Shown one piece after another: positions 1-33,706 of a stretch of 64,000 nucleotides of DNA. Each line of letters opens with the position of its first letter. The first letter of the stretch is position 1. The position numbers were made by a program, and so were the translations under genes. Origin of the DNA: Anaerolineae bacterium (GTDB lineage Bacteria > Chloroflexota > Anaerolineae > Aggregatilineales > Aggregatilineaceae); NCBI GenBank assembly GCA_023382715.1, contig JAHDWP010000008.1, positions 1 through 64,000 on the forward strand, given 5' to 3'. The notes beneath the pieces are model-generated. The model searched no databases. It had not been told where the DNA came from and saw nothing but the letters and a program-made list of their open reading frames with translations.

Positions 1-100
1 TCTCCGTATCTCTCCTCCACTTACCCCCTCAAGAGTAAGTGGCTCCTGTTGCTCTTCACTCGCTGCTTCCTGTCACTATGCTGTTGTTAAGGAGCACCGG
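1..100. other. Left-edge stretch without a gene
   Basis: No convincing reading frame lies here. The only clear structure is a perfect 8-bp inverted repeat, CCACTTAC at 17-24 and GTAAGTGG at 35-42, with a 10-nt loop and no T-run on either side. On the minus strand this would be leader sequence of a gene beyond the window edge, or spacer after the RNA terminator at 101-125. Confidence 0.5.
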
Positions 101-125
101 AACAAAAGCCCGGCTTGCGCCGGCC
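101..125 (-). terminator. Intrinsic terminator-like hairpin of the orphan RNA
   Basis: On the minus strand CCGGC (119-123), a GCAA loop and GCCGG (110-114) form a GC hairpin followed by GCTTTTGTT. The T-run is short but well placed. Confidence 0.5.
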
Positions 126-241
126 AAGACACCTCATTCAGTTCGCAACAATCCCGACCGAATTCCGTGTCTCGCACCTCCCGGTTCGCAGTGAGCCAGG
201 CGCTTTGCACAGCCCACTCTCGCTCTTGCGAGCGCATCCTT

Positions 242-270
242 ATCCTAACACACAACCGGAGCGCTGACAA
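242..270 (-). promoter_or_regulatory. Possible second promoter inside the orphan RNA
   Basis: Minus strand TTGTCA (265-270), 17-nt spacer, TAGGAT (242-247). It would start a shorter transcript near 235, just before the GCAA-tetraloop hairpin. It may instead be a chance match inside the longer RNA. Confidence 0.3.
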
Positions 271-335
271 GAGCCAACCACGAACTTCTCAAAGTGCCGT
301 CCTCCCCCGCGATCAGCAGGGGTGAACGGGGGAGC

Positions 336-363
336 ATTATAGCGGCATTGCCGGGCGTGTCAA
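336..363 (-). promoter_or_regulatory. Perfect-hexamer sigma-70 promoter
   Basis: Minus strand TTGACA (358-363), 16-nt spacer, TATAAT (336-341). It begins downstream of the last hydrogenase-operon gene and points into the non-coding region. Predicted start is near 329. Confidence 0.75.
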
Positions 364-387
364 GGCTCAGTTTCGCCCAATCTACGT

Positions 388-918
388 CTATGCTCCCGGC
401 AACTGTTCTCTCTGCTCTCCAACCAGCTTCAGCACCCGTGTCACCGCCCCGGCAAGCCCCCTCTGGACTTCCGGCGTGCACTCTTCTCGAAAGGTCCAGA
501 CGTCCTGCGCTTCGACCGCGACGATGTCTATGGCTTCATCGCTGGGCACGCGCGCGCCATAACGGCGCAGCGCCCGCAAGGCGGTGACCAGATTCGTGTC
601 GTGCGCCGACGCCATGTTCAGCGTCCCCGGCAGATCGCCCAGCTTAAGCTCATAGACTGTGCCGGGGGGTGCATTCCCGGTCATGATCGCGTCCACAATC
701 ACCGCCCGCTCATAGCCGACGAGCAGCTCAGCCAGCGACAGCCCGCCCACGCACGCCTCCGTGATCTGCACAGAGTCCTGAGCGAGCGGGCTGCCCTCGT
801 ATCGCTGACCTTCCAAGACCTGGCGCACCTGTTCGGCCACCTGCCACCCAATTCCGTCATCGGAAAGGATTGGGTTACCCAAGCCAATGACCACAATGCT
901 GCCAGGCTGTCCAGTCAT
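388..918 (-). CDS. [NiFe] hydrogenase maturation protease
   Basis: A 176-residue M52-family endopeptidase. It removes the C-terminal extension of the hydrogenase large subunit after nickel insertion. The N-terminal motif GLGNPILSDDGIG (12-24) holds the metal-binding acidic residue. D76 in VDAIM and H106 in SAHDTN match the other two metal ligands of this family. The start at 918 follows a GAGGAG-type RBS; the frame stays open farther upstream, but that part overlaps the large-subunit end. It is the last gene of the hdr-mvh operon, 10 nt after the large subunit, whose cleavable tail is present, so the substrate is almost certainly that neighbour. Confidence 0.92.
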   Translation of the reverse strand: MTGQPGSIVVIGLGNPILSDDGIGWQVAEQVRQVLEGQRYEGSPLAQDSVQITEACVGGLSLAELLVGYERAVIVDAIMTGNAPPGTVYELKLGDLPGTLNMASAHDTNLVTALRALRRYGARVPSDEAIDIVAVEAQDVWTFREECTPEVQRGLAGAVTRVLKLVGEQREQLPGA

Positions 919-928
919 GCCACACTCC

Positions 929-2419
929 TCATTCAGGCTGCGCCAGCAGCTCCGGCGCAACATACTGGCTGGCGTGGTGAACCACCTCACCGTTCCGATC
1001 GCGCACGACCAGCTCCAGCGGCATCTGCCCCGGCAGCGTATGCGTGGCGCACGACAGGCACGGATCGTAAGCCCGGAACGCCATCTCGATCTTGTTCAAG
1101 ACGCCGTCATTCACATTGCCGTTCTGGATCAAGGCCTCTGCCGCTCTGCGAATACTCACATACATCGGAGCGTAGTTGTTGGTCGTCCCGACGATCAGGT
1201 TGACCTTCTGCAGGATGCCCTTCTCGTCCGTGATGTAGTGATGCGTCAGCGTGCCACGCGGCGCTTCGACGATCCCCACACCCTCTGAGGGCGTCTCCGT
1301 GGGAATAGCCCGGATGTCGCTGCTGGTCACTTCCGGATCTTCGGCCAGCTCGAGCATATGCTCGGCAGCATACTGCAATTCGATGATGCGCGCCCAGTGC
1401 GCCGCCAGCGTATGGTGCACCGGCTTGCCGCCGAGTGTCTCGTACATGCGCTCGTACTCAGCCTGCGCCAGCGGAGTGGCCAGGCCGTCCGCCGCATTCA
1501 GCCGCGAAAGCGGCGTCGCGCAATAGAGTCCGCTGTCCTTGCCGTCCACAAAGCCCTTCCAGCCAACTTTCTTCAGGTAGGGGAATTTGAGGTACGACCA
1601 GGGCTCGACCCGCTCGGCGACGTACTCGCGGTAATCGTTCGGCGCGTACTTGCAGTGCTCAACTCCATCCGGCCCCACCACACGCACCTTGCCATCGTAG
1701 AAGTTGGCATGGTTATTCTCGTCCACCAGCCCCATGTAGTACGTCTTCTGCGTATAGCCGTCGCTGGTGATCAGGTCCACGTAGTCCGTGTTCTTCAGGA
1801 CAATGTCATGGAACAGGCTGATCGTGAACTGGCCGAACTCGATATTCTTGCGCGCGATAGCGATGATCTCCTGGCGCTGCTCCTCGGTGATCGGGTGAGT
1901 CATCCCGCCGGGGATCGCCGCCACCGGATGGATCGGACGCCCGCCGATCATCTCGATCACGCGGTGATTGCGCTTGCGCGTGTCAATCACCTGTCCGCCG
2001 ATCTCCAGCCCCACCTTGGCGATGACGCCGAGGATGTTGCGCTCAGCAGCAGGAGCATCCGGCCCGACGACGAAGTCCGGCCCGCCCAGCGCGTAGAAGT
2101 GTGTCGTGTGGTCCGTGACAAAGAACGACATGTAGAGCAGTTCGCGCAGCTTCTTGCCCGCCGGCGGCACCTCGACCTTGTACAGGGCGTCGCACGCTTT
2201 GGCGGCGGCCATCATGTGCGCCTCTGGGCAGACCCCGCAGATGCGGCTAGTCAGAAACGGCATCTCCTCGACCGGGCGGCCCACGCAGAACACCTCAAAC
2301 CCGCGTAGCTCAGGGACCTGGAAGTAGCAGTTCTCGACATTGCCCTGCACGTCCAGGAAGATCTCGATCTTGCCGTGCCCTTCCAGGCGGGTGATCGGGT
2401 CAATGGAAATTCGTGTCAT
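929..2419 (-). CDS. mvhA: [NiFe] hydrogenase large subunit, MvhA type
   Basis: The 496-residue catalytic subunit binding the NiFe(CN)2CO centre that splits H2. The N-terminal ligand motif RICGVC gives C61 and C64. The C-terminal motif DPCLSCATH gives C454 and C457. H460 is followed by 36 more residues, a cleavable extension that explains the maturation protease next door. No signal peptide or membrane segment is seen, so the enzyme is cytoplasmic. The partners MvhG, MvhD and HdrABC upstream point to group 3c (methyl-viologen-reducing/heterodisulfide-reductase-linked) hydrogenases rather than uptake or energy-converting types. The group is inferred from gene context. Confidence 0.93.
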   Translation of the reverse strand: MTRISIDPITRLEGHGKIEIFLDVQGNVENCYFQVPELRGFEVFCVGRPVEEMPFLTSRICGVCPEAHMMAAAKACDALYKVEVPPAGKKLRELLYMSFFVTDHTTHFYALGGPDFVVGPDAPAAERNILGVIAKVGLEIGGQVIDTRKRNHRVIEMIGGRPIHPVAAIPGGMTHPITEEQRQEIIAIARKNIEFGQFTISLFHDIVLKNTDYVDLITSDGYTQKTYYMGLVDENNHANFYDGKVRVVGPDGVEHCKYAPNDYREYVAERVEPWSYLKFPYLKKVGWKGFVDGKDSGLYCATPLSRLNAADGLATPLAQAEYERMYETLGGKPVHHTLAAHWARIIELQYAAEHMLELAEDPEVTSSDIRAIPTETPSEGVGIVEAPRGTLTHHYITDEKGILQKVNLIVGTTNNYAPMYVSIRRAAEALIQNGNVNDGVLNKIEMAFRAYDPCLSCATHTLPGQMPLELVVRDRNGEVVHHASQYVAPELLAQPE

Positions 2420-2434
2420 TGTCTTCCTCCTGGG

Positions 2435-3445
2435 CTACGCCGGCTCGCGCTGGCTGGTCTCGCCGACCGGCTGGCGCTGACCGTTGCCGCGCGCCTTGCG
2501 CCGCAGCAGAGAATCGGGCAGATGGAAGCGGTAGAGGTACCCGGCAGGATCGGGCAGCGTGTCGAGGATTGCCTCGGCCTCTTCGGCGGTCATTGCGTCG
2601 AGCACCGAAGCGATTCCCGTGAGGATCTTCGCCCCATGATCGAGCACGCCTTCGTTCGGACCATAGCAGCCCCGGCAGCCAAACCCCACCGACGGGCACT
2701 TCGCGCCGCAGCCAGACCGCGTGGCGATCCCGGCGCAGAACAACCCCTGCTCCAGCAGGCAGATGTCCGGATCGGGGAAGATCTCCTGCGGGCGGTAGAA
2801 GCGCTGAATCTTCTTCTCGCTCTTCTTGCGCGAGCACTCGTCGCATACGGTCACATCAGGGCCGATCACCGACCCCGGCGGCGGCAACTCGCCAGACACA
2901 ATCGCGTTGATCGCGATCTCGATGGACGACGCCTCTGGCGGGCAGCCCGGCAGGAAGTAGTCCACCGGCACCACCTGCGCCAGCGTCTTGACCGTGTTCC
3001 AGAAGCCGGGCAGCCTCAGCTCACCCTCTGGCACATCGCTGCGCTTCTGCGGCACGACGCCATCCGGGTTGACCGTGCTGGGCGAGTCGAAGTAGATCCA
3101 CTGGAACATGGCCTCGCGGTCGGCGAAGTTGGCCAGGCCCGGCATAGACCCGCCATAGGAACACGCGCCGAAAGCTACCAGCACCTTCGACTTCTGGCGC
3201 AGCAGGTGCGCCATGTGCGCGTTCTCGTCGTTGCGGATGGCCCCGTTGAACAGGCACACGTCAATCTCGCCGTCTTCCATCGCCTCGACATCGGCGTACT
3301 TGAAATCCATCACGCACGGCCAGAACACGATGTCAAACGCCTCGGCCACATTGAGAATCTTCTCGTGCAGCCCCAGCACCGCGATCTCGCAGCCGCCGCA
3401 AGACGAGGCCCAGTACAGCGCCAGCTTCGGTTTCTGGTTACTCAT
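2435..3445 (-). CDS. mvhG: [NiFe] hydrogenase small subunit, MvhG type
   Basis: A 336-residue iron-sulfur electron-transfer subunit of the NADH-ubiquinone oxidoreductase 20-kDa family. It carries electrons from the NiFe site to MvhD. Visible features are the proximal-cluster CGGC (C16, C19), FLPGCPP in the middle, and a cysteine-rich C-terminal part (CDECSRKK, LFCAGIATRSGCGAKCP, GCRGC) that fits further [4Fe-4S] clusters. There is no Tat leader, so it is cytoplasmic. The start at 3445 lies in an 8-nt overlap (ATGAGTAA) with the end of mvhD, which implies translational coupling. A gap of 15 nt separates it from mvhA. Confidence 0.92.
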   Translation of the reverse strand: MSNQKPKLALYWASSCGGCEIAVLGLHEKILNVAEAFDIVFWPCVMDFKYADVEAMEDGEIDVCLFNGAIRNDENAHMAHLLRQKSKVLVAFGACSYGGSMPGLANFADREAMFQWIYFDSPSTVNPDGVVPQKRSDVPEGELRLPGFWNTVKTLAQVVPVDYFLPGCPPEASSIEIAINAIVSGELPPPGSVIGPDVTVCDECSRKKSEKKIQRFYRPQEIFPDPDICLLEQGLFCAGIATRSGCGAKCPSVGFGCRGCYGPNEGVLDHGAKILTGIASVLDAMTAEEAEAILDTLPDPAGYLYRFHLPDSLLRRKARGNGQRQPVGETSQREPA

Positions 3446-33634: not shown

Positions 33635-33706
33635 GGCGACGTAGCTCAGCGGTAGAGCAGGGGACTCATAAGCCCTGGGTCGTGTGTTCAAATCACACCG
33701 TCGCCA
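33635..33706 (+). tRNA. tRNA with CAT anticodon (Met, or Ile2)
   Basis: 72 nt. Acceptor stem GGCGACG/CGTCGCC, D arm GCTC/GAGC with a 7-nt loop, anticodon loop CTCATAA, 5-nt variable loop, T arm GTGTG-TTCAAAT-CACAC, discriminator A. CCA is not encoded. The anticodon stem GGGGA/GCCCT has a U-type wobble at 27-43 and an A-G mismatch at 31-39. CAT could be elongator Met or lysidine-modified Ile2; it is not initiator, because the acceptor starts with a normal G-C pair. Confidence 0.93.

Follow-up and report, generated by a model that had tools for sequence, protein, structure and literature searches.

An rRNA operon leader cut by a contig end in an Anaerolineae bacterium, with a putative attenuator hairpin ahead of boxA

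The first 363 bases of the window (the whole 64,000-nt stretch of DNA analysed, whose base 1 is base 1 of contig C8) combine a very strong promoter with a folded region free of protein genes, which raises the question of what this promoter serves. An earlier note on this DNA took the region for an orphan RNA of unknown class and left its strand unstated. All the elements described here lie on the minus strand, and comparison with related genomes indicates that the region, read from 363 to 1, almost certainly holds the promoters and leader of an rRNA operon (rrn) in a bacterium of the Chloroflexota (Anaerolineae). Its features, in the order of transcription, are:

336..363, minus strand: promoter P1, TTGACA-16-TATAAT (TTGACA at 363-358, TATAAT at 341-336), with a transcript start inferred near 329.
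304..322, minus strand: hairpin nearest the 5′ end of the P1 transcript (CCCCUGC/GCGGGGG), from the MFE fold, in a region only loosely alignable outside the genus.
242..270, minus strand: promoter P2, TTGTCA-17-TAGGAT; other window-type leaders conserve TTGnnn-17-TANNAT at the corresponding position.
96..185, minus strand: closing stem ACCGG/CCGGT, in which 185-181 pairs with 100-96, enclosing the terminator-like hairpin.
127..172, minus strand: long stem AGACAC/GTGTCT with a 3x3 internal loop GGA/GAG, in which 172-157 pairs with 142-127; it adjoins the terminator-like hairpin on the 5′ side.
101..123, minus strand: terminator-like hairpin CCGGC-GCAA-GCCGG (CCGGCGCAAGCCGG) with the tail GCTTTTGTT, a GC stem and T-tract directly 5′ of boxA.
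85..96, minus strand: boxA, TGCTCCTTAACA, an 11/12 match to E. coli rrn boxA.
17..42, minus strand: hairpin CCACTTAC...GTAAGTGG, seen in the sequence directly 5′ of the 16S start; relatives have hairpins at the same place, as judged by eye.
1..10, minus strand: first bases of the 16S rRNA gene (GATACGGAGA), aligned with AGTACGGAGA at the start of the RF00177 match in L005 (L005:1616); the contig end truncates the gene.

The gene served by the leader was identified in relatives of the window, where a 16S rRNA gene follows the same promoter, hairpins and boxA. In L005 the same leader continues directly into the 16S gene (RF00177, 57 bits), and full or partial RF00177 matches lie right behind the leader in L017, L020, L031, L033, L042, L044, L059, L060 and L113. 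The distance from the boxA motif to the 16S start is 79–106 nt in all family contigs of sufficient length; the exceptions, L019 and L032, stop at GAGAGTTTGA, itself a 16S start sequence. The codirectional 16S gene expected directly 3′ of a bacterial rRNA operon leader is thus present in the relatives, the window keeping only its first ∼10 bases, and what had been called an orphan RNA turns out to be an rRNA operon leader; nothing was found that speaks against this identity.

The 16S gene is missing downstream of the window's leader because the assembly broke there. The genome's own assembly lacks both the 16S and the 5S genes, as well as the 16S 3′ flank, which would carry the trailer half of a leader-trailer helix for RNase III around 16S. 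It contains a second rrn leader on contig C52, the final 55 nt of which are identical to those of C8, both contigs ending there. Such an exact common end, together with the absent repeat, points to an rRNA repeat collapsed in de Bruijn graph assembly. The same element stands at contig ends in relatives too, both within the genus and within the family. Structured ‘orphan’ RNAs at the contig ends of metagenome assemblies can therefore be rRNA leaders, and should be viewed with caution. The second leader (L037; G000:C52, 17440-19030) has a different promoter, TTGACG-17-TAAGAT, and a different structured part, in the same layout as the window leader, with a hairpin and T-tract before boxA.

A search of window positions 1-3000 with the Rfam 15 covariance models gave no match at E <= 5, in line with the failure to assign the region to a known class when it was first read, and thus no membership in a described RNA family. 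At gathering score, the whole window gave a single Rfam match, a tRNA (33635-33706). The absence of a protein was also borne out: open frames vary in length when the window is compared with two relatives 83–84% identical to it, and the coding reading was rejected since the frames are not kept between these close relatives. A terminator-bearing leader beside an unseen gene might also be a riboswitch (the role suggested earlier) or a T-box, controlling a protein gene beyond the left end of the window. No Rfam model matched, however, and in relatives the leader is followed by 16S rRNA; these 16S neighbours refute the explanation, and with them a protein gene on the left was discarded as the target. 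The suggestion survives only when recast as a possible attenuator of the rRNA operon. Directly 5′ of the operon and codirectional with it, on the minus strand, lie genes for a hydrogenase maturation protease (PF01750; 388-912) and a nickel-dependent hydrogenase large subunit (PF00374; 929-2419). The former served for gathering named relatives and is unrelated to the leader.

The strong upstream promoters of an rRNA operon are present, P1 being perfect and P2 conserved. The 64 kb contain only three perfect promoters, P1 among them (0 expected from 100 shuffles), which agrees with P1 having been ranked among the strongest in the window, and the P1 hexamers and 16-nt spacer are identical in L018, L021, L024, L026, L027, L033, L036, L039 and L040. 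The earlier idea of a highly expressed RNA holds in so far as a promoter of this strength probably drives high transcription; it fails in that the region is not an orphan RNA. P2 had been overlooked, as had boxA and 16S as the true neighbour. Its spacing is kept in most window-type leaders, and a P2-like promoter is the only one in the short leaders L022, L023 and L038. In L018, L019, L021, L024 and L033, a conserved A-rich stretch (AAACCNAANNCAAAT) just 5′ of P2 resembles an UP element for the RNA polymerase alpha subunits. The boxA antitermination signal (96-85) is one base apart from that of the E. coli rrn operons, TGCTCTTTAACA. The motif CTTAACAACAGCANAGTGACAGGAAG (91-66), located just after the hairpin and containing the boxA core, is kept in the family: it occurred 24 times in 13 genomes, all of the window's family (the order was searched), while a reversed-pattern control gave 0.

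A strong promoter, a structured region and a terminator would also make a complete unit, that is, a free-standing small RNA gene of ∼220 nt lying by chance 5′ of the rRNA operon; the short leader L038 shows how P2 and boxA might suffice for the operon. However, P2 is located within this unit and 5′ of the terminator, which rRNA transcripts started at P2 therefore have to pass as well. Conservation does not end at the T-tract, as first supposed, but extends through 66 to the contig end. When 298 genomes of the class were searched with a covariance model of the leader core, 12 matches were obtained, eight of them before a 16S gene and three at contig ends with boxA (the window, L126 and L132); a weak match, L134, looks like chance. 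No free-standing copy of the core was seen in this search, the core never occurring away from 16S or a boxA-bearing contig end, and the type B leaders of the family are reduced to a promoter-terminator-boxA layout. A separate small RNA gene is therefore improbable.

The leader region is strongly folded (MFE −105 kcal/mol, z = −3.2 versus shuffles). RNAalifold gave a weak consensus for the whole leader (covariation term −0.53) because its outer parts align poorly, and covariation was thus counted on the core. Some stems were misplaced in core alignment A2; A3, from which those sequences had been removed, was used instead. In 13 sequences, the long stem (172-127) was paired in 93% of cells, with three pairs changed on both sides, and the terminator-like hairpin in 100%, with one compensated pair. 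For the two together, across three families, 96% of cells were paired and 11 were changed on both sides, pairing and covariation scores that were reached by 0/500 shuffles, and sliding the stem or hairpin columns by 1–3 abolished the pairing. In families f2, f3 and f30, counterparts of the long stem were found (stems partly hand-parsed and to be taken as illustrative). The closing stem has a counterpart, GGAGG/CCUCC, in several relatives; its complementarity was 9.23 with its own partners versus 7.96 (sd 0.27) with permuted ones, and 0/2000 permutations were as high. These covariation and complementarity tests leave shared ancestry aside, and are to be read as supportive, not exact. The structured RNA, the long stem with its 3x3 internal loop and the GC hairpin with T-tract described earlier were all recovered, and the compensatory changes then called for were found. 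The hairpins, said to be mutually compatible and to include a GNRA loop, are not all so, since a CTCTTG/CAAGAG pairing competes with the GCAA-capped hairpin in the MFE fold.

A GC hairpin with T-tract between promoter and genes, as in an intrinsic transcription attenuator, is present in the window. A hairpin and T-tract lie at most 65 nt from boxA in 20 of the 24 family leaders, versus 2% of upstream sequence and 6% of shuffles. They were found in two family leader types that have little else in common, the T-tract in both being of at least four T, usually continued by G and T. Outside the family, 7/11 tested leaders of f2, f3, f4 and f7 (chosen by 16S start) had them. A search with a terminator-boxA pattern, which itself selects for the terminator, found it before 16S in further families. 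Counted against attenuation are the weakness of the window's own terminator (5 bp, tail GCTTTTGTT) and the hairpin's absence from some second operons of f2 and f7 and from most f6 leaders, where it was seen in 1/17, in a poor-looking match (the boxA position is doubtful for a few f6 loci). Two f2 genomes, G018 (L060/L041) and G021 (L042/L061), have the terminator before boxA in one rRNA operon and lack it in the other, which suggests that the two operons are controlled differently.

The output of rRNA is usually described as set by promoter control and then protected by boxA antitermination. BoxA loads NusB-S10, making the polymerase resistant to later termination, and has no effect on a terminator already passed. 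We therefore infer that the hairpin may form an attenuator, which would cut back rRNA transcription ahead of boxA and release a short leader RNA. In transcripts from P1 and P2 the hairpin and T-tract would be reached while boxA is still to be synthesized, and part of the polymerases would stop there, releasing a leader RNA of ∼220 nt (P1) or ∼130 nt (P2); a separate RNA of ∼220 nt ending at the T-tract is possible as a product of attenuation. In polymerases reading through, the stem would close across the terminator and leave boxA exposed; this would load the NusB/S10 antitermination complex, the rRNA genes would be transcribed, and the leader would be removed later, during 16S maturation. Taken together, an rrn leader whose attenuator and promoters jointly set rRNA output is very probably the best explanation of the locus. 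For the attenuator step alone, a stop to part of rRNA transcription ahead of boxA, the sequences leave the chances about even.

The main rival to the attenuator is a pausing or boxB-like structural role. The locus would still be an rrn leader; its hairpin and T-tract would serve not for termination but as a pause or a boxB-like junction element that aids the loading of NusA, NusB and S10 at boxA and shapes pre-16S folding. The hairpin of only 5 bp would suit such a role, as would the position of the T-tract, which the closing stem encloses and which would then be a junction strand; in E. coli rrn the boxB hairpin is also directly 5′ of boxA (PMC10250234). However, boxA is still untranscribed when the polymerase is at the T-tract, and the retention of the T-tract in both otherwise differing leader types fits termination better than a simple hairpin. 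This role is possible, but we consider it less probable.

If the hairpin acts as an attenuator, a conserved terminator ahead of boxA would be an early checkpoint on rRNA output, beyond the power of boxA. More tentatively than either of the preceding proposals, the structured leader might sense the state of the cell (e.g. free 30S subunits via the conserved GGAGG, or a nucleotide) and decide whether polymerase passes the intrinsic terminator before boxA. In the literature searched, which covered few subscription papers, no rRNA leader was found described with an intrinsic terminator 5′ of boxA. The rRNA leader is of a known kind; the placement of the terminator-like hairpin ahead of boxA is accordingly taken as new, with a putative function, and its conservation suggests that Chloroflexota may limit rRNA synthesis in a way not yet described.

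Among known systems, the Bacillus subtilis rplJL leader (PMC4538822) is a transcription attenuator of ribosomal genes, and resembles the window leader in having an intrinsic terminator ahead of genes of the translation machinery. Unlike it, the window leader precedes rRNA and not a protein gene, and is without an established ligand protein or alternative antiterminator fold. In the E. coli rrn leader, boxB, boxA and boxC elements follow P2, with the boxB hairpin directly 5′ of boxA (PMC10250234). The two leaders share two tandem promoters and a nearly identical boxA, followed by 16S. Unlike the E. coli leader, that of the window has ∼150 nt between P2 and boxA, with a structured part that no Rfam family matches, and carries a terminator-like hairpin with a T-tract and a covarying domain in the place of boxB.
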